Assembly (NCBI RefSeq): GCF_000732485.2
Contig: NZ_JAQV02000004.1
Location: 62,001 to 126,000 of the forward strand
From: Bacillus sp. SJS
Lineage (GTDB): Bacteria; Bacillota; Bacilli; Bacillales; Bacillaceae
Direction: 5' to 3'
DNA length: 64,000 nucleotides
The notes beneath the pieces are model-generated. The model made no database searches and was not told the origin of the DNA. It saw only the letters and a program-made list of their open reading frames with translations. The translations under genes were made by a program, and so were the position numbers. This document shows positions 52,076 to 64,000 of the stretch, in pieces. How positions within the stretch are numbered: the stretch's first letter is position 1; every line of letters begins with the position of its first letter.

Positions 52076-52111
52076 AAAAAAATAATCCTTCCAGGAAAGG
52101 AAAGGATTATT
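52076..52111 (-). terminator. Terminator of the carbohydrate operon
   Basis: AATAATCCTT/AAGGATTATT stem extended by CC/GG, with seven T on the minus strand, overlapping the end of the ROK gene. Confidence 0.88.
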
Positions 52112-53012
52112 CCTTAAGAGAATGCAGAAGCATAAGACCCGCTCCAGTTAAGCCGGCGGTATCGTTTAAAGCACTTACTGATATCCGCTTTGAAATCGGT
52201 TCATTCCGAAGGGAGCGGTACCCATCCAGCTCACGGCAAATTTCGGCAGCAAGCCTGCGGTTCCGGTTCATAACGCCGCCCCCAAGGACAATTCGGTGAG
52301 GATCAATCAAACAGATGATGGAATAAACGGATTTGGCCAAACGGGCAATCATTTTCTCCGTTTCCTTTGCCTGCTCCCCTGCAAGAAGGTAATCAAACAG
52401 CTCCATTTTCTCCTCCATTAATTTTCCGCTGAAAGCTTTAACCTTTTCGGAAATGGCTGATCCGGAAGCCACCTCTTCCAGAGTTCGGTAAACGAAAGTG
52501 CCGTCACCTGCCTCTTCCTCCACATACATTCCAATTTCCCCGGCCATTCCTGCCCCTCTAAAAAAAGCTCCGTTATGAATGATGCTGCATGCAATGCCTG
52601 TACTTACTGTCATAAAAACAAACGTTTCATTTTTTTCCCCGCCCAGATTGTACCACTCCGCATAAGACGCCATACAAACATCGTTATCAAGCAGGACCGG
52701 CATGCCGAAGTCTTCCTGAAGTTTTTCTGAGAGAGGAAAGCTCCTCCATGGAAGGTTATTGGAAAACAGAGCAAGCCCTTTTTCTCTATCAATTAAACCA
52801 GGTGAGCCTGCCCCAATGCCGGCAATCCGCTCCAGTTGAATATCAGATTTGGCGATGACTTCGCCAATGCACTCCCTAACCCGCTCATACATTTCTGATT
52901 CGCTGGAGGGAGCAGAAGGGCGAATGGTCACTGAACCGCACTTCCCAGACTCAAATACGAGTCCCGCCGCTATCTTGGATCCGCCAATGTCCAGTCCGAT
53001 TGCGCAATCCAT
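52107..53012 (-). CDS. ROK family sugar kinase-like protein without zinc motif
   Basis: 301-residue ROK (repressor/ORF/kinase) protein lacking the DNA-binding N-terminus, so a kinase rather than a NagC/XylR repressor. ATP loop DIGGSK (8-13), catalytic Asp in LLDNDV (D111), and GEIG (158-161) are present. The residue after GEIG is Met instead of the sugar/zinc-binding His, and the CxCGxxGC zinc cluster is absent (only EEEAGDGTF). Likely phosphorylates a sugar from the locus, perhaps with a different active site. Last gene of the operon. Confidence 0.85.
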   Translation of the reverse strand: MDCAIGLDIGGSKIAAGLVFESGKCGSVTIRPSAPSSESEMYERVRECIGEVIAKSDIQLERIAGIGAGSPGLIDREKGLALFSNNLPWRSFPLSEKLQEDFGMPVLLDNDVCMASYAEWYNLGGEKNETFVFMTVSTGIACSIIHNGAFFRGAGMAGEIGMYVEEEAGDGTFVYRTLEEVASGSAISEKVKAFSGKLMEEKMELFDYLLAGEQAKETEKMIARLAKSVYSIICLIDPHRIVLGGGVMNRNRRLAAEICRELDGYRSLRNEPISKRISVSALNDTAGLTGAGLMLLHSLKE

Positions 53013-53028
53013 ACCATTTTCCTCCCAG

Positions 53029-54063
53029 CTATAATGGAATGTGAACCACTTGTGTTAAGTTTTTCGGCAGATCCGGATTTAGATTAAGAAATCTCGCCCT
53101 ATAATAAGCTATTTTCTGAACATAAGGCATGGCGAGAACCGAATGATGATCCGCTGTTCCGGCAGGCAGGGCGAATGATTCTGTTACCCTCTCCCTGTCC
53201 TCTTCCGTGAGGTCCGGTCCGAGATAATACACCGCTGCTCCAAGCTTCCTGCAGTCTTCGAGAAGAGGCAAATCATATTTCACCGTAGACCTGGAGCCAA
53301 GGAGAATGATCGCTGTTTTCGTACCCGCTATCGAGATCGGACCGTGCCGGAATTCTAGAGAACAATAGCTTTCACATACCGTTTGTGTCATTTCCTTCAG
53401 CTTTAGAGTGGCTTCCTTGGCCAGGCCGTTGTACATTCCGCTGCCTAAGTAGATTACATTCTCCCATTCATTACTCTCAGAAAATTTCTTCACCTTTTCT
53501 GAAAGGCTTAAAGCCTCTTTCATTTTTTCAGGAAGAGTTTTTAATTCGTTCCATGCAGCAGGGTCACCGGCGATATGTGCAGCATAAAGCTGAAGAGAAT
53601 ACAGCATGGCAGAAAAGCTTTGGGTCATCACTACACTCTTTTCATTCACGTGAGAGAGAATAATCGCTTCATCACAGCTTATGCAAAGGGGAGAATCCTC
53701 ATTGCACGTTACCGCTATAGTCGATATATTTTTCCTGCCGCGTACCGTTTTCACAGCTTCTACTGCCTCAGATGTGGTGCCGGATCTTGATATGACCGCA
53801 ATCTGATAGTCTGAATCGTTGGCTAATGCTTCGTCTGGACAGAGAATCAGCTCAGAAGCCGGAACTGCTGCTGCAGGTCGGCCTGTTATTTTCTGATAAT
53901 ATTTAGCTGCACTGTGGGCTAAATAAAAAGAGGTTCCGCACCCTGTAAAAAGAAGAATCGTTCCGGGTTTTAATTCTTTAAGGGACCTGTCGCTGACAGA
54001 ATGAAAGGTTTTTTCCATTATTTCCGGCTGATCGTTTATTTCATCCAGCGTATAGCTATTCAT
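53029..54063 (-). CDS. SIS-domain sugar isomerase (AgaS/FrlB-like)
   Basis: 344-residue protein of two SIS domains in the GlmS-isomerase arrangement: first with GCGTSFYLAH (41-50) and SRSGTTSEA (92-100), second with GSGMYNGLAKEAT (208-220) and EFRHGPIS (237-244). It lacks the GlmS glutaminase half, so likely interconverts or deaminates a sugar phosphate. ATG at 54063 is five bases after AGGAGGGG; the frame is open 40 more codons without an RBS. Follows pfkB by 28 bases. Confidence 0.87.
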   Translation of the reverse strand: MNSYTLDEINDQPEIMEKTFHSVSDRSLKELKPGTILLFTGCGTSFYLAHSAAKYYQKITGRPAAAVPASELILCPDEALANDSDYQIAVISRSGTTSEAVEAVKTVRGRKNISTIAVTCNEDSPLCISCDEAIILSHVNEKSVVMTQSFSAMLYSLQLYAAHIAGDPAAWNELKTLPEKMKEALSLSEKVKKFSESNEWENVIYLGSGMYNGLAKEATLKLKEMTQTVCESYCSLEFRHGPISIAGTKTAIILLGSRSTVKYDLPLLEDCRKLGAAVYYLGPDLTEEDRERVTESFALPAGTADHHSVLAMPYVQKIAYYRARFLNLNPDLPKNLTQVVHIPL

Positions 54064-54091
54064 GCTAACCCCTCCTAAATAAATGGGTGAA

Positions 54092-55033
54092 TTACAGGTT
54101 ATAAACCTGAACCGTATGTTTAATATGTTCATAGTTTTCAATCCGGACCGTACCGGCTGTCCATTCCATCGCATTTGCAGCACCCGCGGCTGTCCCGCTG
54201 ATTATGGCTTCTTTCCAGCAGCGCCCTTTGTAAAGCGCCGCTGTAAACCCTGCCAGAAATGCATCACCGCATCCGGTCGGATTAACGGCATGAACCTTTG
54301 GGGCCGTTGCAAATAGAGTGATTCCCTTGCTGTGAAAAATTGAGCCCCTGCTGCCAAGCGTAAGAGCGACCGCATTTGCACCACCATCGGATGCCGCTTT
54401 AACATCCTTTGCAATCTCTTTCACATCAATCGCGTCATAATCCCTGCCAAATAAACTGCCCAGCTCCCCGAGATTTGGTTTTATTAGAAAAGGCTTTGTC
54501 TGGAGTGCTTTTTCCAGTGTCTTCCCGCCCGTATCAAAAATAATCCTGGCTCCCTTGGCAGCAGCTCTTTCTGCAGCTTCGATGTACGAGTCCTCATTGA
54601 GGCCGCCAGGAAGACTTCCGGAAAATAGAACATACTGACTTTCAGCTGCAAGCTCCGTTAAATCTTTTTCTAAAAACCGATGCCATTCAGCAGGGGTTAT
54701 TTCGGGACCCTTTTCCAGCAGTTCCGTTTGGATGCCGGCACAGCCTGGATCAGCGATGGAGTGACAGGCCCTGCTTTCATCTTCTATTTCTGTGAAGCGG
54801 CTATCAATAGAGCGCCGAAGCAGGGAATCTACGATAAACCGGCCATTTTCTCCCCCTGCAAAGCCTGCAGCTGTAACGGGAATTTGAAGTGCGTGGAGTA
54901 CTTTGGCAGCATTTACTCCTTTACCGCCAGGCTCTTTGAAAACCTGCTGAATCCGGTTAATCTCATTTTTCCTGAACCCCGGAATGAGATAGGTCAGATC
55001 GGCAGCTGCATTCAGCGTAATCGTTGTGATCAT
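54092..55033 (-). CDS. PfkB-family phosphofructokinase/tagatose-6-phosphate kinase-like
   Basis: 313-residue ribokinase-fold kinase of the FruK/LacC type. Signature 1 GGKGVNAAKVL (36-46) and signature 2 NPTGCGDAFLAGF (251-263) with catalytic D257 are present. Normally makes ketose 1,6-bisphosphates. Its TAA overlaps no downstream gene, but its own ATG shares one base with the aldolase stop (TAATG), so it is coupled to the aldolase that would cleave its product. Confidence 0.9.
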   Translation of the reverse strand: MITTITLNAAADLTYLIPGFRKNEINRIQQVFKEPGGKGVNAAKVLHALQIPVTAAGFAGGENGRFIVDSLLRRSIDSRFTEIEDESRACHSIADPGCAGIQTELLEKGPEITPAEWHRFLEKDLTELAAESQYVLFSGSLPGGLNEDSYIEAAERAAAKGARIIFDTGGKTLEKALQTKPFLIKPNLGELGSLFGRDYDAIDVKEIAKDVKAASDGGANAVALTLGSRGSIFHSKGITLFATAPKVHAVNPTGCGDAFLAGFTAALYKGRCWKEAIISGTAAGAANAMEWTAGTVRIENYEHIKHTVQVYNL

Positions 55034-55893
55034 TATAAAACCCGCTGTTTTTCTATCAATACCGAGATTTTTTCTTTCACCAGCTCCTCGACATTTTCCC
55101 TTGCTGACATAAAATATTTTCTAGGATCCGATGCAGTTGGATGACTTTGCAAATAGTGTCTAAGCTCGGCTGCAAACGCAAGCTTTAACTCGGTTGAATA
55201 ATTAATTTTTGCAATTCCGCAGTTTATTGCTTTCCTAATGTCCTCATTACTTACACCTGATGCACCGTGCATCACCAGCGGAATTCCTGAGGCATCCTTA
55301 ATGGCCTCAAGCAGCTGGAAATCCAAATCAGGTTCGTCTGCATATACACCGTGTACCGTGCCAAAGGATGGGGCGAGGAAGTCGATTCCCGTACGCTTTG
55401 CAAACTCTCCCGCCAAGGAAGGATCTGTGTACATTAGCCGGTCTGTTTTTTCTCCGTTCCCTTCGTTTCTCGCAATGGACCCAAGCTCTGCTTCAACCGG
55501 AATGCCCATCGCGTGGGAAGCCTCGGTTACTTTCTTTACCAGGTGGACATTTTCTTCAAAATCAAGGGATGAACCGTCAATCATGATAGACGTATAGCCC
55601 GCCCGGAGGCACTGCATCGCGATGTGAAAGGTATCCCCGTGGTCAAGATGAAGAGCTACAGGGATCTTCGCCTTTTCAGCTAAATTTTTAACTGCCGCAA
55701 CTGTGTAATCAAGACCCATATAACGGACCGTATCAGGTGTTGTCTGAAGGATCACAGGTGAATTCATACGCTCTGCACCATGAATAACAGCCTTCATGAT
55801 TTCAAGGTTATGAACAGCAAAGGCCCCAATCGCATACCCATTTTCAAAAGCATCCATTACGATTTCTTTTGGCGTCACAAAAGACACGTTCAT
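55033..55893 (-). CDS. Class II ketose-bisphosphate aldolase
   Basis: 286-residue zinc aldolase of the FbaA/GatY/KbaY/IolJ group. Zinc and catalytic residues are in LHLDHGDT (D84, H85), E136 in VEAELGS, H181 in GTVHG and H209 in VMHGASG. It yields dihydroxyacetone phosphate and an aldehyde. The exact ketose (fructose, tagatose or other bisphosphate) cannot be told. 15 bases after the aminotransferase gene. Confidence 0.92.
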   Translation of the reverse strand: MNVSFVTPKEIVMDAFENGYAIGAFAVHNLEIMKAVIHGAERMNSPVILQTTPDTVRYMGLDYTVAAVKNLAEKAKIPVALHLDHGDTFHIAMQCLRAGYTSIMIDGSSLDFEENVHLVKKVTEASHAMGIPVEAELGSIARNEGNGEKTDRLMYTDPSLAGEFAKRTGIDFLAPSFGTVHGVYADEPDLDFQLLEAIKDASGIPLVMHGASGVSNEDIRKAINCGIAKINYSTELKLAFAAELRHYLQSHPTASDPRKYFMSARENVEELVKEKISVLIEKQRVL

Positions 55894-55908
55894 TCCTCCT
55901 GTTGCCCA

Positions 55909-57150
55909 TTATTTTTTGTAATACGCAGCTACTTTTACAATGGCTCTTCCTGTTTCCTCCATATCCTGATTTGTGAAAAATTCGCTCATCGGCAGCTTAA
56001 TAGCCGTTTCCAGGATTTTTTCCGCCTCAGGACAGCTTCCGGCCTCATACGTTTGCTCCGTTAAGCTGAATGGGTACTCGGTTCCCGGATAGGCTGACCG
56101 ATATGAAAAAAGAGGCTGCTTGTAAAGGACTTCTGCTATATAACCAGCCTGATTGGGAATTCCTTCTTCCCTTAAAGCTTCAGAGAATTCTTCCCTCGAG
56201 CAGGTCAGCAAATCCAGGTCAAGCCTGAACATGTAAAACCAGTAGGTCGACACGCTATTTGCCGGGACTTCGGGAGGAAAGATTCCTTGGATTCCCCCGA
56301 TCATTTTCGTGAGCATCTCCCCGAGCTCCGTCCTTCTTGCGCATAAGCCGGGAAGTTTTTTCAGCTGTGCGATTCCTACTGCCCCCTGCAGCTCTGACAT
56401 TCGATAGTTCGGAGCAAGCGAGCTGATTTTCCGGGTAACAGATGAATCAAAACGGGAGTAATTTTTATCGGCAAACGCATGCGCGCGCATGAATACTTCC
56501 TCACCCTGATGATTGACAGCGACCATCCCGCCGTCGCCCGTTGATATATGCTTGAAATCGTTCGTACTAAAGCACCCAAAATGGCCGATTGTTCCCGTCA
56601 GCCTGCCGTTTTGCTTTGCCAGATAGCTTTGTGCACAGTCTTCAATCACGATCAGACCATGCTTATTGGCGATCGCCATAATCTGATCCATCCGGCATGG
56701 AGTTCCAGCGAGATGGACCGCTATAATAGCTTTCGTTTTAGCGGTGATCATACGCTCAATGGAAGCCGGATCCAGATTAAAGCTATAAGGCTCTAAATCT
56801 GCGAAGACGGGTATTGCGTTTTGATAAAGAATTCCAACGACCGTCCCCTGGTCGGTAATCGGGCTTGTAATCACTTCATCTCCTGCGGTAATTCCAGCAG
56901 CTCCCAGAGCTACATGAATGGCTGCTGTGCCAGAGGAAGCCGCAACGCTATGCTGTATTCCATACAGAGCATTAAAATGCTGCAAAAAGGTTTTCACCTT
57001 TGTACCGAAGTGATAAAAAAGGGTATCCTGTTCCAGCGCTTCAAGCAATTCCTTTGCCTCTTCAAGACCAAAGCGCTTGCCTGTGCCAAAGGGTGCCGTT
57101 TTTGTTTTTTTTCCTCCATGAATGGCAAGGAAATCCGTTTGAATGCCCAT
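55909..57150 (-). CDS. DegT/DnrJ/EryC1/StrS-family PLP aminotransferase
   Basis: 413-residue sugar aminotransferase-like PLP enzyme. PLP lysine K200 in STNDFKHISTGDGG, D171 in IEDCAQS and ASSGTAAIHVAL (phosphate binding) are intact, and the RMSELQGAVG block is typical of the family. DegT enzymes usually make amino sugars (or 3-amino-5-hydroxybenzoate); beside transport, aldolase and kinase genes a reversed, catabolic deamination is possible. Sits between the deacetylase (12 bases) and the aldolase. Confidence 0.88.
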   Translation of the reverse strand: MGIQTDFLAIHGGKKTKTAPFGTGKRFGLEEAKELLEALEQDTLFYHFGTKVKTFLQHFNALYGIQHSVAASSGTAAIHVALGAAGITAGDEVITSPITDQGTVVGILYQNAIPVFADLEPYSFNLDPASIERMITAKTKAIIAVHLAGTPCRMDQIMAIANKHGLIVIEDCAQSYLAKQNGRLTGTIGHFGCFSTNDFKHISTGDGGMVAVNHQGEEVFMRAHAFADKNYSRFDSSVTRKISSLAPNYRMSELQGAVGIAQLKKLPGLCARRTELGEMLTKMIGGIQGIFPPEVPANSVSTYWFYMFRLDLDLLTCSREEFSEALREEGIPNQAGYIAEVLYKQPLFSYRSAYPGTEYPFSLTEQTYEAGSCPEAEKILETAIKLPMSEFFTNQDMEETGRAIVKVAAYYKK

Positions 57151-57162
57151 TGAATTCTCCTT

Positions 57163-58863
57163 TCAGGACGTTTGTGCTTGTGTATGCGAGAAGATTTTCT
57201 TCAGGCATAAGTGACCGTAGCGGATCTCGGCTGCCTCTTTCTCCCAATGTGCCTCCTTTGGCACCGGTACCCATATGACTGTATCTGCTCCGGTCACCGC
57301 CCCAGATACGGCCGGTTCACCTGAATCCGAAATTCCTTCAATTTTCATCTTTCTTCTTTCCCGTTCCCAAATCGCAATTTGTTTGGATGTCCAAAATTCA
57401 AATCGGCGGTCACGGGCCGTTTTCACTAATTTTCTGAAAGCCTCCGACACCTTTGGCTGCTCGAGGAAATGAAGCTGATGAAAAAGAAAATGGGCAACCC
57501 CGCCGATTCGTTTCACTTCTTCCAAAAAAGGATCAATCACGGATGTATCTGCAAGGGCATGATGATTAAGGTCCTGTGTTAAAAAGCCGAGCTCGAGAAC
57601 GTTATACTGCCGGTTATTTTCGGTATGCCAGGCAATCGGGTAATAAGGGAGGCACGTTCCAAATAAAAAGCCGATGTTTCCCTTTTTGCTTGGTCCTCTG
57701 GACTGATCAACTTGAATGCCCTCGTTTTCACACCACTCAAACAGCTCTCCCCAGCCTTCAAAGCGGGTATAGTGATTTTTATTTGTATAAACCGTTTTCA
57801 AATCTGCCTTGCTTTTCAAGTCCTGCAGCTGCCGCTTAAACTCTTTCTCGCTCCACAGGCCATTCTCAAGCTCAAGCGCGTTGTAATGGAAGGCAAGCTC
57901 ATGGCCCTCCTGCTTAATCCTTTCATATAAGGGCCTCTCATACCCGGGCTCGATCATGCACCAAGTAGAATGAACTTCGCATTCTTTTAACAGAGAAAGT
58001 GTGATGTCAGCCGATTCTTCCAAATTAAAATCACTGTCATGAGAAATGGTCGCAATATGCTCAATTCCTTCAGGCCATCTTCCCGCGAAAGGGACTGTCA
58101 GCCCTTTTTCCAAAGCCATTTCGGCAAGCTTATGAACGAGCACTTCTCTCCATTTATCCGCATGAGCTTCAGAAAAATAGTTCATCCCTGTTTCGGTCTC
58201 TGCCCTGTCAAAGCTCCAGTCCAAAGTAAAGCTATCGTCCGCCTTCAGCTGGCCATCATCAATACCGGCCGTTCCGTCCGGAGCCGGCTCCCCATCTTTC
58301 CAAATCGGTTCAATCCCCTGCTGTATTCCCACGATGGAGTACGGAATGTCAGCCTGGCAGTGAACAATTTTTCCACTCCCTGAGTGTATGACCGTCCAGA
58401 GCTCTGACAGCACAGGCCCTTTAGGGGATCCGCTCACTAAAAATCCTGATTTCGCGTTCCATCCCGATGGAGCCCCTTTATACCAAGTATTTGTTTTTAA
58501 AAACCGGAGAGGCTTTGGATGCCCCAGACCTTTTGGCGTGTAGCCGTATCCATTTCCCCCGGACTCCGTCTTGTATCCAGCCCAGCTTGCAAGTTTAGGA
58601 GAATCCGATAAATGAATCACCGTTCCCCCTGCCTCCACAAATGAGAGGAGGCCATCAAGTGACTGCCGTGATTCATTCAGCAATCCCGCTATTAATAGAT
58701 CCATCTCTTTTAACGAATCGGTTTGATTTGATAGAACCTGATAGGGAATTCCTAAATGGTCCAGTACTTCTCTAATATAGAAAGCGAAAACATTTTCCTG
58801 TTTTGTCCATTTATCCGCTGCGGCTTGCTCATCAAGCAGCAATCCGATTTTTGCCATCCTCAT
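57163..58863 (-). CDS. Two-domain protein: GATase-like fold plus NodB-type deacetylase
   Basis: 566-residue cytoplasmic protein (no signal). Residues about 1-260 look like a class I glutamine amidotransferase-type fold (MDLLIAGLLNESRQSLDGLL, VEAGGTVIHLS), as seen next to glycoside-active domains. Residues about 265-510 look like a polysaccharide deacetylase barrel: ISHDSDF (D276, D278), GHELAFHYN (H321, H326) and a late LFHQLHF His motif. I infer removal of an N-acyl or similar group from a sugar. ATG overlaps the oxidoreductase stop (ATGA). Confidence 0.72.
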   Translation of the reverse strand: MRMAKIGLLLDEQAAADKWTKQENVFAFYIREVLDHLGIPYQVLSNQTDSLKEMDLLIAGLLNESRQSLDGLLSFVEAGGTVIHLSDSPKLASWAGYKTESGGNGYGYTPKGLGHPKPLRFLKTNTWYKGAPSGWNAKSGFLVSGSPKGPVLSELWTVIHSGSGKIVHCQADIPYSIVGIQQGIEPIWKDGEPAPDGTAGIDDGQLKADDSFTLDWSFDRAETETGMNYFSEAHADKWREVLVHKLAEMALEKGLTVPFAGRWPEGIEHIATISHDSDFNLEESADITLSLLKECEVHSTWCMIEPGYERPLYERIKQEGHELAFHYNALELENGLWSEKEFKRQLQDLKSKADLKTVYTNKNHYTRFEGWGELFEWCENEGIQVDQSRGPSKKGNIGFLFGTCLPYYPIAWHTENNRQYNVLELGFLTQDLNHHALADTSVIDPFLEEVKRIGGVAHFLFHQLHFLEQPKVSEAFRKLVKTARDRRFEFWTSKQIAIWERERRKMKIEGISDSGEPAVSGAVTGADTVIWVPVPKEAHWEKEAAEIRYGHLCLKKIFSHTQAQTS

Positions 58864-59798
58864 GTCTCACACCTGCCCATGCCGGTTCTCTCTTTCTTTG
58901 TTTGAATAACGACTTTTTCGCCACCGCGGTTCCTGCTCAGATTTACCGCTTCAATAAAGTGTATAATTTCAAGCGTCTCTTCATTCTCCGGAACTGGTCT
59001 TCCTGTTTTTGAAAAATTCACGACTTGGTCGAGAAGGGAAGCATAATACGGTTTTTGAGTCCTGCTCAAATTCAAATGCTTCTCACTGTCTTTCATCGTA
59101 ATAACCGCTTCAAAATCAGCCTGTTCGGTTTTCATGCCGAAAAGAGTTCCTGTCCTGCCCCCGCTCCACTCGCACATGACCATTTCCATCTCATCTCTTA
59201 CGGCTGCCTGAACGCTCTCACACCCTTTTCCTAAAATGGAAAAGAGCATTTCAGCCAGATGAATTCCATACCAGAAATAACCAGGCTGTGTCATCTCAAA
59301 AGTTAGCGGACCGATGCATTCCGCATGGTCAATGCGCCCCTTGTATGCAGATAAAAACGTCTGAAGGTTTTCGCCAAACCTCAGTGAAGAGCTGCTCATC
59401 AGCGGAACGTTCCATTTCTTTGCAAGATCGATTATTCTTTTGGCAGAATTGGAGCTGACTGAAAAAGGTTTATCAATAAATACAGGAATTCCATAAGGAC
59501 AAATTTTACGGAACAGCTCCTCGTGCATTCGCCCGTCAACCGACGTTATCCAAACCGCATCACATTTGCCTGCCGCTTCTTCCGGTGTTTCTGTCATTTC
59601 AATGTGATATCTATCTCTTAATAACGATGTATAACGCTCCACCCTATTTATACTTAATGGAAAATCACCTGTGCCTCCCGGATAGGCCGCCTTAATTAAA
59701 ACACGTTCAATAAAGTGAGGATTTTCAGGATTCATAACAAGATCAGTAAAAATTTCTGCGTGGGACGTATCAAGTCCGATCATCGCAATGTTCAGCAT
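58860..59798 (-). CDS. Gfo/Idh/MocA-family oxidoreductase
   Basis: 312-residue NAD(P)-dependent sugar dehydrogenase family protein. The start MLNIAMIGLDTSHAEIF replaces the usual GxGxxG loop by GLDTSH, a variant; the catalytic Lys region is VFIDKPFS (K110, family EKP). The later substrate domain is complete. ATG at 59798 follows AAGGGGTGAGGGG; the longer frame is unsupported. Coupled to the deacetylase by a four-base overlap. Probably oxidises or reduces the imported sugar. Confidence 0.86.
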   Translation of the reverse strand: MLNIAMIGLDTSHAEIFTDLVMNPENPHFIERVLIKAAYPGGTGDFPLSINRVERYTSLLRDRYHIEMTETPEEAAGKCDAVWITSVDGRMHEELFRKICPYGIPVFIDKPFSVSSNSAKRIIDLAKKWNVPLMSSSSLRFGENLQTFLSAYKGRIDHAECIGPLTFEMTQPGYFWYGIHLAEMLFSILGKGCESVQAAVRDEMEMVMCEWSGGRTGTLFGMKTEQADFEAVITMKDSEKHLNLSRTQKPYYASLLDQVVNFSKTGRPVPENEETLEIIHFIEAVNLSRNRGGEKVVIQTKKERTGMGRCET

Positions 59799-59885
59799 CC
59801 CCTCACCCCTTCCAGCAAAAATCAACTTTCCACAGCTTTTTTGTTTCATGTTCCAGAGAGGCTTACATGTCAATTGCATGTATAG

Positions 59886-59932
59886 GAAGAAAAAGGGGCT
59901 CGGGATTCATAAAAACCCAGCCCCCTTTGCTC
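59886..59932 (-). terminator. Intra-operon terminator between lipoprotein and oxidoreductase
   Basis: AAAGG.GGCT.GGG / CCC.AGCC.CCTTT stem with two bulges, then TTTTTCTTCC on the minus strand. Placed between the transport and the enzyme genes, so some readthrough must feed the latter. Confidence 0.65.
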
Positions 59933-61486
59933 TTACTTCCAGTGCTCCCCATCTTTAATTTGAGAATTGTACTCCTCAATCATTTTCTGTCCGCCCATAT
60001 TCAAAAATTCCTCAACCATCTTATCCCATTCAGAAACAGGACGCTGACCTGCAATCATTTTTGCCTGTTCATCAAAAAGGAACTGATCAAATTCTTCTTT
60101 TTTCTGCTGTGCCGTTTCAGAGACAAGACCATTTACAGGATTCATGTAATGCTTTGTAGACTTGTGCATTTCTTCAAGCTCTTTCGCAAGCTTGGAGACT
60201 TTTTCATTTTTATAATCTTTGTAGAACTCATTCACATCTTCATTTGGAGGCCACATTGCATTATCTACATAGTACGTAGAAGGCGTTTTTCCTTCTGTGG
60301 CAAAATTCGGGTCAAGTACCGCTGTTCCATCCTGCATTGTGTATCCTTTTCCTTCATTTCCCCACCACCAGTCAAACTCTTTATTCTCAGGTGTCCGTTG
60401 TTCACGCGGATAGAAGGTGCGCCCAAATTCCATCATTTCAAGGATTTTTTTAATTTTGCCCGGATCCTTTGCCAGGTCAGCTGAAATGGCAGTAATACCG
60501 CCGTAGCCTGAAGTGGCTGTATATCCCGTGTTTCCATCAGGATCAGCAAATGGGTATAGCGGAGCGAATTCTGCATTCGGCTGAAGCTCCAATAATCCGG
60601 CATAATAAGGTTCGGACATTCCTCTCGGCGCCCCAACGAAAATTCCCGCTTTGCCTGAGAAGAACTCCTTATTCGTATCTGGCCATGTTAGAACCGCATA
60701 ATCCTGCGTGATGGCTTTTTCTTTGTAAAGATCGGCAAAAAACTGAATCATTTCTTTGCGTGCATCAGAGATCATTCCCGGAATATATTTGCCGTCTTTA
60801 TCTTTGTGCAGCCAGGACTCTGCATTCCAATAAGCCCCCATGTCAAAGTCCGGGTTGATTTTCTCTCCCATTGCAAATCCGTACGTATCATTTTTTCCAT
60901 TTCCGTCTGGATCATTTTTGGTGAAAGCTAACGCTACTGCTTTTAGCTCTTCATAGTTTTTCGGCATTTCAAGCCCAAGTTTATCCAACCAATCCTTACG
61001 GATAATCGGAGTCAGGTCCGCTTCAGGGTAATAAGTAGGAATCCCGTAGATTTTTCCGTTTACCTTCATGGATTCCCAAATGTGATCTGGAACATTTTTC
61101 AGGGTCTCATATTTCCCGATGTATTCATCAAGAGGCAAAAATGCACCTTGTCCGGCCCATTTTGCAAATCTTGTGTCCACAGCTTCAAATCCAACCATGT
61201 CCGGTACATCCCCAGAAGCTACCACTGCAGAAAGCTTTTCCTGATAATCAGCCTGCGGAACGAATTGAACCTGATAATCCACATTGAATTTTTCATTAAT
61301 CATTTTCAGTCCGGCGCCATCTTTTGGAGGCGGATCCCCAAAACGAAAATCAATGGCGGTTACCGTATATTTTTTATTCGGATCCTTTTCGTTCTCTGCC
61401 GGTTTAGAAGCGGTATCATTTGACGTACAGCCTCCTGCCAGAAGAATGCCTGCTAATATAAGACTTAACCCTTTCGCTCTCTTCAT
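59933..61486 (-). CDS. ABC transporter sugar-binding lipoprotein (LplA-like)
   Basis: 517-residue extracellular solute-binding protein of the large CUT1/LplA group. Signal peptide ends at the lipobox LLAGGC with lipidated C20. Body segments such as SGYGGITAISADLAKDP and FAKWAGQGAFLPLDEYI fit family 1 binding proteins for oligosaccharides. It works with the two permeases at 61545 and 62443. ATG preceded by GGAGGGA. Confidence 0.9.
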   Translation of the reverse strand: MKRAKGLSLILAGILLAGGCTSNDTASKPAENEKDPNKKYTVTAIDFRFGDPPPKDGAGLKMINEKFNVDYQVQFVPQADYQEKLSAVVASGDVPDMVGFEAVDTRFAKWAGQGAFLPLDEYIGKYETLKNVPDHIWESMKVNGKIYGIPTYYPEADLTPIIRKDWLDKLGLEMPKNYEELKAVALAFTKNDPDGNGKNDTYGFAMGEKINPDFDMGAYWNAESWLHKDKDGKYIPGMISDARKEMIQFFADLYKEKAITQDYAVLTWPDTNKEFFSGKAGIFVGAPRGMSEPYYAGLLELQPNAEFAPLYPFADPDGNTGYTATSGYGGITAISADLAKDPGKIKKILEMMEFGRTFYPREQRTPENKEFDWWWGNEGKGYTMQDGTAVLDPNFATEGKTPSTYYVDNAMWPPNEDVNEFYKDYKNEKVSKLAKELEEMHKSTKHYMNPVNGLVSETAQQKKEEFDQFLFDEQAKMIAGQRPVSEWDKMVEEFLNMGGQKMIEEYNSQIKDGEHWK

Positions 61487-61544
61487 CCCAATCCCTCCGT
61501 TTACGGTAATTGACCCATGAAATCAACTTGAATGCAGCCTTTCT

Positions 61545-62420
61545 TCACCCTTTAACAGATCCAAGCATCACCCCTTTAGCAAAATGTTTTTGAAGAAATG
61601 GATACACAAGCAAAATTGGCAATGTGGCAAGCAGGATTGCCGCCATTTGTATGGTTTCAGGAGGCGGGGGACTTTCAAGCATTGCCGCTGTACTTCCAAG
61701 CGCCGAGTTCGGTTCATTGATGACAACAATCTGCCGCAAAACCACTTGAATCGGCCAAAGCGACGGATCATTCAAGTAAAGAATTCCAGTAAAGTAGTTG
61801 TTCCAATGCATCACTGCATAAAACAAGCCAAACGCAGCAAGAGCAGGTTTGGATAGCGGAAGGACAATTTTCCAGAACACCTGCCCTTCATTCGCTCCAT
61901 CAATTAAAGCCGCATCGTGAAGCTCTTCAGGGATGTTCAGGAAAAACTGTCTCATGACAATTAAATAAAAAGGACTGATTGCAACCGGAATAATCAGCGA
62001 CCAAATCGAATTCAGAAGGCCGGTAGCTTTGACCACAAGGTAAGTTGGAATCATTCCGGCACTGAATAGAATGGTAAAGAGCACGAACAGAATGAAGAAT
62101 CTTTGACCGGCAATCGGACGGGCAAGAGCATATGCCATAGTGGCTGTAAAAAATAAATTCACGATTGTCCCTGCGACCGTTATAAAAACCGTCACTCCAA
62201 GCGACCTTAAAAAGTTTTGGGAGCTGAGGATGTATTCATAAGCATCTGTTACCCATTGCTTTGGCCAAAGCAGAAAGTCATTGTTTAAAAAATCGGATAA
62301 GGAAGAAAAGGAGACTGTAAAAATATAAAGAAAAGGAAAAATCATCACAAATCCTATCAGGAGCAGTGCGAGCATATTGAACCCTTCCAGAATCCGGTCA
62401 GGTATTGAGCGATGGTGCAT
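61545..62420 (-). CDS. ABC sugar permease, LplC/YtcP type
   Basis: 291-residue membrane permease with six helices and the EAA loop EELHDAALIDGANEGQVFWKIVLPLSKP. LplC-like ones end with the FAKGVMLGSVKG tail. ATG at 62420 is favoured by GGATGTGA five bases upstream; ATG at 62435 lacks a site. Follows the LplB-like gene closely. Confidence 0.9.
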   Translation of the reverse strand: MHHRSIPDRILEGFNMLALLLIGFVMIFPFLYIFTVSFSSLSDFLNNDFLLWPKQWVTDAYEYILSSQNFLRSLGVTVFITVAGTIVNLFFTATMAYALARPIAGQRFFILFVLFTILFSAGMIPTYLVVKATGLLNSIWSLIIPVAISPFYLIVMRQFFLNIPEELHDAALIDGANEGQVFWKIVLPLSKPALAAFGLFYAVMHWNNYFTGILYLNDPSLWPIQVVLRQIVVINEPNSALGSTAAMLESPPPPETIQMAAILLATLPILLVYPFLQKHFAKGVMLGSVKG

Positions 62421-62442
62421 ATCGTTCACATCCATTCATGGT

Positions 62443-63420
62443 TTAATAGAGGCCTTCCTGACCAAATCTCTTCGCAAGCCGATTGGCAGTGACCACAAGG
62501 ATCAATCCGACCACTCCTTTAAACAGTCCGACGGCAGTGGCAAAACCGTAGTCCGCCTGCTGAATGCCTTTAAAATACACAAACGTATCCAAAACATTTC
62601 CAACATCCATATTAAATGGATTCAGCATGAGGAAAATCTGCTCAAAACCGCTGTCCAGAACGTTTCCCAGTCTCAAAATCAGCAAGATCAAAATCGTGCT
62701 CTTTAGAGCAGGCAGCGTAATATACCATATTTGCTTTAAACGTCCGGCACCATCCATAATCGCCGCTTCATATAGCTGCGGATTAATTCCAGACAGCGCT
62801 GCAAGGAAAATAATCGTTCCCCAACCGGCCTCTTTCCAAATCACCTGAAGGACGATAAGCGGCTGAAAAAAGGCAGGATTGGTCAGGAAAGGAATCGAAT
62901 CAAGACCTGCCGCCATCAGCATACTGTTGATGAGGCCTTCACTTCTCAAGAAAATAACGGTAATGCCGACAACCACCACCCAGGATAAAAAGTGAGGCAG
63001 ATAAATGACTGATTGAACAATTCGTTTAAACGTTTGGCTTCTTACCTCATTAAGCATAATGGCTAAAATAATCGGAACTGGAAAAGCGAATACGATCTGG
63101 AGAAATGAGAGACTTAATGTATTCCAGATTACTTGCAGAACATCACTGTTTGAGAAAATTTTCTCAAAGTGTGCGAAGCCGACCCATGGACTTTCGATAA
63201 TCCCCTGAAACGGATTATAATCCTTGAACGCAAGCACCAAACCAAGCATCGGAATGTATTTATAAATCAGGAAGTAGAGAAATCCCGGAAGCAGAAGCAG
63301 GTATAAATAACGCTGTCTGAGAAATGATCGTTTCGCCTTAGCAGCCAGTGATATTTTTTGCACCGGCAGTTTTTCATTCAATTTAGGCACGACTGGGGTT
63401 TGTACGGGCTGATTTTCCAT
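62443..63420 (-). CDS. ABC sugar permease, LplB/YteP type
   Basis: 325-residue permease with a long cytosolic N-terminus, six membrane helices and the EAA loop LYEAAIMDGAGRLKQIWYITLPAL. Pairs with the LplC-like permease. No ATPase gene is in the locus; related Bacillus systems share the MsmX ATPase encoded elsewhere. GGAGGGA site. Confidence 0.92.
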   Translation of the reverse strand: MENQPVQTPVVPKLNEKLPVQKISLAAKAKRSFLRQRYLYLLLLPGFLYFLIYKYIPMLGLVLAFKDYNPFQGIIESPWVGFAHFEKIFSNSDVLQVIWNTLSLSFLQIVFAFPVPIILAIMLNEVRSQTFKRIVQSVIYLPHFLSWVVVVGITVIFLRSEGLINSMLMAAGLDSIPFLTNPAFFQPLIVLQVIWKEAGWGTIIFLAALSGINPQLYEAAIMDGAGRLKQIWYITLPALKSTILILLILRLGNVLDSGFEQIFLMLNPFNMDVGNVLDTFVYFKGIQQADYGFATAVGLFKGVVGLILVVTANRLAKRFGQEGLY

Positions 63421-63476
63421 GTGATCCCTCCTTATATACCTGTATAGAACTTGTATTTTATTATTCAGAGAGGGTC

Positions 63477-64000
63477 TTACCCTGCTCTTGACGGATGCAG
63501 CTTATGAAACCTTCTGCTGCAAGCCCATTCAATAAAGAAAATCGGTCCGGATATAGCGAAGAATGGCAAAAGTCCAGGGATATAGAACAAGATAACCGCT
63601 ATTAATAAAAGTCCGGCTGCCAGCAGAAAGAAAGTAGCGGGGTACCCTAACAAAAGATAGATGGAATTTTTTACGTATCCAAAGCTTTTCATATCATAAT
63701 GAACATAAAGTGAAAAAACAGTAATGAATCCAAAGAGCCAGACAGCAAGCAGGATAAAGCATAAATATGAGGCTAGCAGTGCGTAAATGGAGGGAAATGA
63801 CCGAAAAAAACTATAATCAATATAAAGAATGGCTCCTATTGAAAAAAAGAGGTATCCCAGCTTGTTTGTATTCTTCCATTCTCTCCTGTAATATTCCCTG
63901 AACACCTTGCCTGCCTTCTGATCTTCGCCTTTGATTAAAGTCCTGACTGTATGGTGGGCAGCTGCTGTAGCAGGGAAAATCCCAAGTACCACAAGCCCGG
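63477..64000 (-). CDS. DUF624/YesL-like membrane protein (5' end outside window)
   Basis: At least 174 residues; the frame remains open to the window edge, so the start is missing. DUF624 hallmark FPATAAAHHTVRTLIKGE and four membrane segments are seen. YesL-type proteins accompany LplABC-type oligosaccharide transporters in Bacillus operons. Stop lies 56 bases before the LplB-like start. Confidence 0.85.
   Translation of the reverse strand, partial: GLVVLGIFPATAAAHHTVRTLIKGEDQKAGKVFREYYRREWKNTNKLGYLFFSIGAILYIDYSFFRSFPSIYALLASYLCFILLAVWLFGFITVFSLYVHYDMKSFGYVKNSIYLLLGYPATFFLLAAGLLLIAVILFYIPGLLPFFAISGPIFFIEWACSRRFHKLHPSRAG

Follow-up and report, generated by a model that had tools for sequence, protein, structure and literature searches.

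Gene content of the locus

The window analysed here is the 64,000-nucleotide stretch G000:C4:62001-126000, belonging to the 4.15-Mb draft genome of Bacillus sp. SJS, and this text deals with the sugar-related genes at its end, in particular with three of them, encoding a putative deacetylase, a DegT aminotransferase and a Gfo/Idh-family oxidoreductase, referred to below as the core. Eleven minus-strand genes fill positions 52107-64000, with intergenic gaps of -4 to 134 bases; the co-orientation, overlaps and short gaps reported in a preliminary description of this DNA were thus borne out, and the domains it had named are present. The eleven genes belong to a 16-gene glycan-utilisation operon, described here from its gene content, order and conservation and, in conditional terms, from the chemistry that its products would carry out. 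Genomes and retrieved loci are denoted by G and L numbers, and the genes inside the window are the following (aa, amino acids).

52107..53012, minus strand, ROK-family sugar kinase, 301 aa, final gene of the operon (PF00480, 153.5 bits)
53029..54063, minus strand, SIS-domain protein, 344 aa (PF01380, 84.4 bits; NCBIfam GlmD, 156.7 bits, below the cut-off of 580)
54092..55033, minus strand, PfkB hexose-phosphate kinase, 313 aa, of the 1-phosphofructokinase (1-PFK)/tagatose-6-phosphate kinase subfamily (TIGR03168, 285.5 bits, cut-off 216.4)
55033..55893, minus strand, class II ketose-bisphosphate aldolase, 286 aa (TIGR00167, 292.5 bits, cut-off 215.6)
55909..57150, minus strand, DegT/DnrJ/EryC1/StrS aminotransferase dependent on pyridoxal phosphate (PLP), 413 aa, core (PF01041, 270.6 bits)
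57163..58863, minus strand, CE4-like deacetylase, 566 aa, with an additional domain at the N-terminus, core (CE4 fold matches; conserved D276, D278 and H326)
58860..59798, minus strand, Gfo/Idh-family oxidoreductase, 312 aa (PF01408, 36.5 bits; Gfo/Idh fold; 4-base overlap with the deacetylase gene)
59933..61486, minus strand, solute-binding protein of an LplABC-type ABC importer, 517 aa (SBP_bac_1, 61.9 bits; start lipobox-like by eye)
61545..62435, minus strand, ABC permease of LplC type, 296 aa (BPD_transp_1, 51.7 bits)
62443..63420, minus strand, ABC permease of LplB type, 325 aa (BPD_transp_1, 51.4 bits)
63477..64000, minus strand, DUF624 (YesL-like) membrane protein, cut by the window end (PF04854, 83.3 bits)

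The best starts of the SIS and Gfo/Idh genes are the ATG codons at 54063 (344 aa) and 59798 (312 aa), and the DUF624 frame extends to window position 64091 (L009:12477-13091).

Conservation of the core and its neighbours

The deacetylase was found in four of the 60 genomes of a first search, its own included, with identities of 87% in G001, 74% in G002 and 47% in G004, which falls in the window genome's genus. In a sample of the class comprising 398 genomes, again with its own, it was present in 18, and a search with DegT (E <=1e-75) returned the same 18 genomes, 15 at 62-100% and three at 44-45% identity, plus one DegT at 40% elsewhere. Four loci emerged from a pattern scan across the genome collection, in P. 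puerhi, P. cisolokensis, Metabacillus kandeliae and one Chloroflexota metagenome-assembled genome (MAG). The stretch viewed for each locus did not exceed 21.7 kb, and the true presence of neighbours may be higher than the counts given here. Of 24 distinct deacetylase loci, 20 have the deacetylase and DegT genes side by side in the same orientation, separated by -131 to 167 bases (distances computed from first-start frames, overlaps being upper limits), and 18 of the 20 also have a co-oriented Gfo/Idh gene of at least 40% identity. Three of the remaining loci carry a 36% deacetylase and a 44-45% DegT on the same contig, 13-17 kb apart. The conserved unit is therefore the deacetylase with DegT, usually accompanied by Gfo/Idh.

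The larger set that the preliminary description had singled out for a neighbourhood search, DegT, deacetylase, aldolase, PfkB and SIS, is not conserved together and was discarded as a unit: among the 20 core loci ROK was seen in nine, SIS in seven, the aldolase in six and PfkB in four, all four in the window's genus (in G175 the ROK gene lies just outside the counted stretch, L111). Proteins of family GH123 were found in 4/20 and of GH20C in 5/20, each Pfam-checked, and one or the other in 9/20. Six loci have a Hepar_II_III protein, by scanning in L009, L022, L053 and L059 and as orthologs of the window genome's protein in L023 and L045. This variation in depolymerising and hexosamine genes indicates a modular core that is combined with differing gene sets of this kind. 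A catabolic setting, with GH20C, GH123, heparinase-like proteins and importers as neighbours, is well supported, and the earlier proposal that the locus serves to degrade an N-acylated amino sugar or oligosaccharide gains from the importer, the kinases, the aldolase and the GH20C or GH123 genes near the core in those nine loci.

These neighbours bear on the idea that the core is biosynthetic, making an amino sugar (kanosamine-like, or the precursor of a glycan) while the uptake genes supply precursors. All the characterised Gfo/Idh and DegT pairs known to us are indeed biosynthetic. WbpB/WbpE and GenD2/GenS2 are also presented as such in two papers (PMC10622841, PMC4340712). The deacetylase itself, and the importers, heparinase-like, GH20C and GH123 proteins around the core, argue in the opposite direction, and no glycosyltransferase or nucleotidyltransferase was seen among the identified neighbours, though many frames in the stretches are unassigned. 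We regard a biosynthetic role as highly unlikely.

The same counts are relevant to ordinary N-acetylgalactosamine (GalNAc) catabolism with an unusual deacetylase, in which galactosamine would be freed from GalNAc or oligosaccharides, ROK, SIS, PfkB and the aldolase would form the tagatose route, and DegT and Gfo/Idh would trim a minor side substituent. These four enzymes of one operon could make a complete hexosamine route, and no NagA is encoded among the genes of the operon, although one scoring above cut-off is present on contig C19 of the genome. On the other hand, SIS is absent from 13/20 and PfkB from 16/20 core loci in the stretch seen, which argues that the deacetylase is independent of that route being adjacent. 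NagA-like proteins, moreover, occur in the core stretches L047, L048, L051 and L052 (in L047 it is truncated at the stretch edge and reaches 174 bits, the cut-off being 225.7), and NagB-type PF01182 proteins in all three stretches scanned, L047, L048 and L051. With both in one stretch with the core in L047, and relatives of the two in L048 and L051, these loci seem to have a separate route for plain N-acetylhexosamine, and a role of the deacetylase as a simple replacement of NagA was rejected on the basis of these shared stretches. Ordinary GalNAc catabolism is, in our judgement, quite unlikely.

The three core proteins

The 566-aa protein matched no Pfam family at the curated cut-off, Polysacc_deac_1 reaching 15.2 bits (residues 284-359) against 23.1, and its sequence had no match among solved structures at E 1, for which reason its structure was modelled. 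The AlphaFold model has a mean predicted local distance difference test score (pLDDT) of 67, with values below 50 in residues 132-150, 181-233, 363-373, 387-437 and 562-566. Its Foldseek matches include 2vyo, PdaC and BC1974 (E 2e-5 to 3e-3, template modelling score by target <=0.66), as well as PelA and NDST1, and indicate a NodB-type deformed barrel; a GH42 galactosidase and Op5Man5 were matched too. Judging from motif positions, as aligned ranges were not given, the CE4/NodB match would correspond to the C-terminal half and the GH42/Op5Man5 match to the N-terminal half. CE4 enzymes have an Asp pair in motif 1 (TFDDG-like) and an HxxxH metal motif. D276 and D278 ('DSD') and H326 are kept in 24/24 rows, window included, H326 being the first His of HxxxH; the second position is never His in these 24 rows, and for this reason the protein is named CE4-like and not a CE4 member. 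In the preliminary description this protein was called a two-domain deacetylase.

DegT is a clear family member (270.6 bits, cut-off 19.8), with the PLP lysine K200 (FSTNDFK) kept in 20/20 rows. Outside the genus it retains 62-67% identity, while the deacetylase has 43-49% and Gfo/Idh 42-47%, and this position as the most conserved of the three suggests one fixed substrate. The comparison made earlier with the kanosamine enzymes NtdA/NtdC was appropriate as far as likeness to Gfo/Idh and DegT pairs goes; a close kinship of DegT with NtdA was rejected, their similarity (8e-25) being at family level only. A second DegT, 33-34% identical to the first, adjoins the core in three loci (L056:11947-13479, L057:12491-13717, L058:12489-13715) and lies farther off in another (L059:18453-19730), a hint of sugars carrying two or more amino groups.

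Gfo/Idh passes its family profile (36.5 bits, cut-off 24), and its model (pLDDT 82) gives fold matches across the whole family (E ~1e-15), with GenD2, KanD2 and GnnA among near-equal ones. Matches so even do not fix the substrate.

Other genes of the operon, its site and regulation

Among the sugar-processing enzymes, the SIS protein is probably an amino-sugar-phosphate deaminase/isomerase of the GlmD/AgaS/GlmS-isomerase type, judging from its sequence, and its E[FY]RHGP motif is kept in 10/10 aligned rows. PfkB has a Pfam score of 147.4 bits and is below cut-off with the LacC and 1-PFK equivalog models; the aldolase scores 329.4 bits with F_bP_aldolase and 331.7 with GatY, below the cut-off of 383. 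A motif scan of the ROK kinase did not find CxCGxxGC. The logic of SIS deaminase/isomerase, tagatose-6-phosphate kinase and class II aldolase is shared with the Aga operons for GalNAc and galactosamine, whereas the ABC importer, ROK, the CE4-like deacetylase and the DegT/Gfo pair are particular to the operon described here; its PfkB and aldolase pass subfamily cut-offs (TIGR03168, TIGR00167), while SIS, PfkB and aldolase stay below the equivalog cut-offs compared.

The whole operon comprises 16 genes over 21.6 kb and extends 9.7 kb past the window end, with five more genes upstream. One of these encodes a Hepar_II_III_C protein of 724 aa (L009:13151-15325; domain 53.3 bits, cut-off 24), a predicted lyase of heparinase II/III type in whose sequence no signal peptide is visible. 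The others include an AXE1/DLH-like (esterase-like) hydrolase, a protein of 980 aa that has a Big_2 domain and a start resembling, by eye, a signal peptide, and a 576-aa protein without a match in the Pfam scan; the last two look propeller-like in sequence. Some 5.6-7.0 kb beyond the window end (L021:1573-3009), a DNA-binding domain of GntR type is joined in one protein to an entire ABC solute-binding domain, in what seems to be a regulator sensing a sugar through a binding-protein fold. Relatives of this fusion were found at 49% identity in L050 and L053 and at 41-50% in L061-L063. Scans of L021:1-7000 gave promoter-like and terminator-like matches at about shuffle level (9 versus 10.7 and 9 versus 7.1, respectively), and a hairpin of 10 pairs followed by a T run lies just ahead of the operon (L021:5882-5904). 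Two one-mismatch matches to the CcpA cre site were obtained in L009 and L021, both within genes.

The operon is flanked by yrvD on one side and by a histidine-phosphatase gene next to recJ on the other. In the congener G003 the site is empty, the histidine-phosphatase and yrvD frames being about 230 bases apart (L125:4734-5902). A tRNA-associated island was rejected, L009 having no tRNA, and so was a GC island, since 2-kb blocks have 42-48% GC in the operon and 43-47% in the preceding 12 kb. GH88-type matches were discarded as a marker of carriers because they occur in all five genomes searched (its own and four congeners), G003 included. Three congeners have the genes in the same order and orientation, save inserted genes and one split PfkB frame, and M. 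kandeliae, which encodes the same proteins as G004, carries the same operon. The split PfkB, that of G001 (L022:4272-5212), consists of two open frames of 113 and 144 aa, and could be a broken gene or an assembly error. G002 has, between the Gfo/Idh and binding-protein genes, an additional gene for a Hepar_II_III_C protein of divergent sequence (598 aa, L023:9964-11760).

An associated SDR-DHDPS module

The M. kandeliae operon has two genes inserted between DegT and aldolase, encoding a short-chain dehydrogenase/reductase (SDR) and a protein of the dihydrodipicolinate synthase (DHDPS) family. Orthologs of the latter (64-67%) lie elsewhere in the genomes of G000, G001 and G002, with an SDR and a regulator; the three form a module at L068:8431-11821, and G003 has neither the core nor the DHDPS gene. 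In the class sample a DHDPS-like gene is present in 13/15 core genomes against 29/383 others (Fisher p 2.8e-12, kinship uncorrected), and within one order in 10/12 against 1/25 (p 1.9e-6, kinship likewise uncorrected), a count that leaves out five genomes of that order outside the DHDPS sample. The core, too, has relatives of the regulator nearby, in L051 and L054-L058; the one in L056 has a GdpP-type GGDEF match, below cut-off. Neither the SDR nor the DHDPS-like protein had an NCBIfam match at 1e-5, and the M. kandeliae SDR had no sequence match in PDB at 0.001. An Nramp-type metal transporter recurs near the SDR-DHDPS pair in L100, L104, L105, L111, L116 and L118, identified by Pfam in L104 and L105 and by clustering in the other loci.

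This association could reflect chemistry at C2: a hexosamine that cannot be phosphorylated at position 6 (6-deoxy-HexNAc or HexNAc-uronate) would become a 2-keto sugar through deacetylation and transamination by the core, then a sugar acid through Gfo/Idh and the SDR, and finally yield pyruvate through the DHDPS-like lyase. The co-occurrence with the core, the position inside the M. kandeliae operon and the DHDPS lysine, kept in 28/28 rows (two of them the same protein), are in agreement with such a route, as are the muconate-cycloisomerase-like enolase-superfamily genes nearby in L054, L056, L057, L058, L060 and L102, the Gfo/Idh relatives that accompany the SDR-DHDPS pair even without the core, and serine-dehydratase-like genes, which suit a 2-amino-3-hydroxy acid. 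The Agrobacterium uronate route Udh-Gci-KdgD likewise brings together SDR, enolase-superfamily and DHDPS-family proteins (compare L102 and L056-L058); it differs in that the enolase-superfamily protein found here is best matched by the muconate cycloisomerase model, below cut-off, and the SDR and DHDPS-like proteins match no NCBIfam model at 1e-5. Against the C2 route, DHDPS-like genes occur in 29 genomes without the core and the window's operon has no recognised sugar-acid dehydratase, and we consider it unlikely.

Proposed pathway and its weighing

The possibility that we tentatively prefer, short of calling it probable, is that within this glycan-utilisation operon the core strips an N-acetylated amino group from an imported sugar, after which the hexosamine would be consumed. 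An amino-sugar-bearing polysaccharide would be broken by the protein of heparinase II/III type and by further proteins, secreted or cytoplasmic, and the LplABC-type importer would take up oligosaccharides. The CE4-like enzyme would then deacetylate the sugar's extra N-acetylated amino group, DegT would pass the free amine to a keto acid, leaving a keto sugar, and Gfo/Idh would reduce the ketone to a hydroxyl, a sequence equivalent to a biosynthetic step in reverse (NtdC/NtdA or WbpB/WbpE backwards). The resulting hexosamine would be phosphorylated by ROK, deaminated and isomerised by SIS, phosphorylated again by PfkB and cleaved by the class II aldolase; the dedicated PfkB and aldolase suggest the galactosamine/tagatose branch. 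The DHDPS-like aldolase and SDR encoded elsewhere in the genome would probably handle an acidic or further product.

By analogy, the amine removed would most likely be that at C3, since the partner pairs NtdC/NtdA, GnnA/GnnB, WbpB/WbpE and GenD2/GenS2 act at this position. NtdC/NtdA serves kanosamine synthesis in B. subtilis, and GnnA/GnnB is likewise a Gfo/Idh and DegT pair. WbpB/WbpE act at C3 of UDP-GlcNAcA (PMC10622841), and GenS2 with GenD2 were run in reverse in vitro, converting the 3''-NH2 of kanamycin B and tobramycin to 3''-OH essentially quantitatively with 2-oxoglutarate and NADH or NADPH (PMC4340712). It is from this reversal, and from the C3 action of WbpB/WbpE, that we infer a deacetylation-transamination-reduction sequence at C3.

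The likeness to these systems has its limits. NtdC/NtdA and WbpB/WbpE/WbpD also combine a dehydrogenase and a PLP aminotransferase on one sugar carbon, and in the Wbp system an N-acyl step is attached too, catalysed by an acetyltransferase where this core has a deacetylase; those systems are biosynthetic, whereas importers, hydrolases and lyase-like proteins surround this core. WbpB/WbpE use UDP-sugars (PMC10622841), and DegT resembles WbpE at family level only (3e-29). Reversed GenS2 and GenD2 do deaminate the 3'' position, and the fold matches of the Gfo/Idh model include GenD2 and KanD2; their natural direction, however, is amination (PMC4340712), and these matches are unspecific (14-18% identity, with many others equal).

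Several observations weigh against stripping of an amine by the core, and some of them specifically against C3. The closest solved relative of DegT is 7b0m (6e-61), followed, among others, by perosamine synthetase (1e-44), a C4 enzyme that outranks both WbpE and NtdA, so that C3 enzymes are not favoured. For Gfo/Idh, besides the nearly flat fold matches, the usual dinucleotide-binding motif GxGxxG is missing, with 'GLDTSHA' instead in 4/4 aligned sequences, so that use of the cofactor is putative; the gene was not found in the fetched stretches of L050 and L053, and the SDR-DHDPS pair has relatives of it nearby in genomes without the deacetylase, at 46-47% in L100 and L104, and others at 36-38% in L109, L115 and L118. 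Gfo/Idh may thus belong to the SDR-DHDPS module, or also serve it, and the L100 and L104 cases lower our confidence in amine stripping, also in the diamino-sugar form given below, and raise that in the C2 route. The Chloroflexota MAG, whose deacetylase is 34% identical, lacks both DegT and Gfo/Idh in the 21.5 kb seen, the window's own operon lacks GH20C and GH123, and the DHDPS gene is missing from the core genomes G154 and G350, its presence in the 29 genomes without the core counting here as well. In favour of amine stripping, the SDR-DHDPS pair without the core lies near what we take to be other nitrogen-removing genes: a class III aminotransferase, two M20 proteins and a GH20C relative in L101, and serine-dehydratase-like subunits with M20 in L109 and L117. 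In L112 such subunits are accompanied by a heparinase protein.

GH20 and GH123 enzymes use the 2-acetamido group of their substrates, and an additional amine fits this need: the 3-acetamido group would be removed and the 2-acetamido group left for them. A more specific form of the proposal, which we see as rather doubtful, is the catabolic stripping of the 3-acetamido group from imported diamino sugars to give ordinary hexosamines, with the logic of WbpB/WbpE/WbpD reversed. Candidate substrates would be 2,3-diacetamido-2,3-dideoxyhexoses or their uronates, derived from bacterial envelope glycans.

Text searches of an open-access library, at the level of titles and abstract openings, turned up no characterised locus with this gene set, which is weak evidence of absence, many of the hits not mentioning DegT; the match to a known locus that would have undone the preliminary description has thus not appeared. 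The core represents a credible candidate pathway, and for such a use of these enzymes no published counterpart was found. DegT aminotransferases are mostly annotated as biosynthetic, and to our knowledge the breakdown of many rare amino sugars of bacterial envelopes has been little described. If amine stripping is true, such annotations would be corrected, enzymes for removing sugar amino groups would be supplied, and the conserved catabolic core would be a marker for organisms that feed on these glycans; in the case of diamino sugars, it would mean feeding on the rare sugars of other bacteria.

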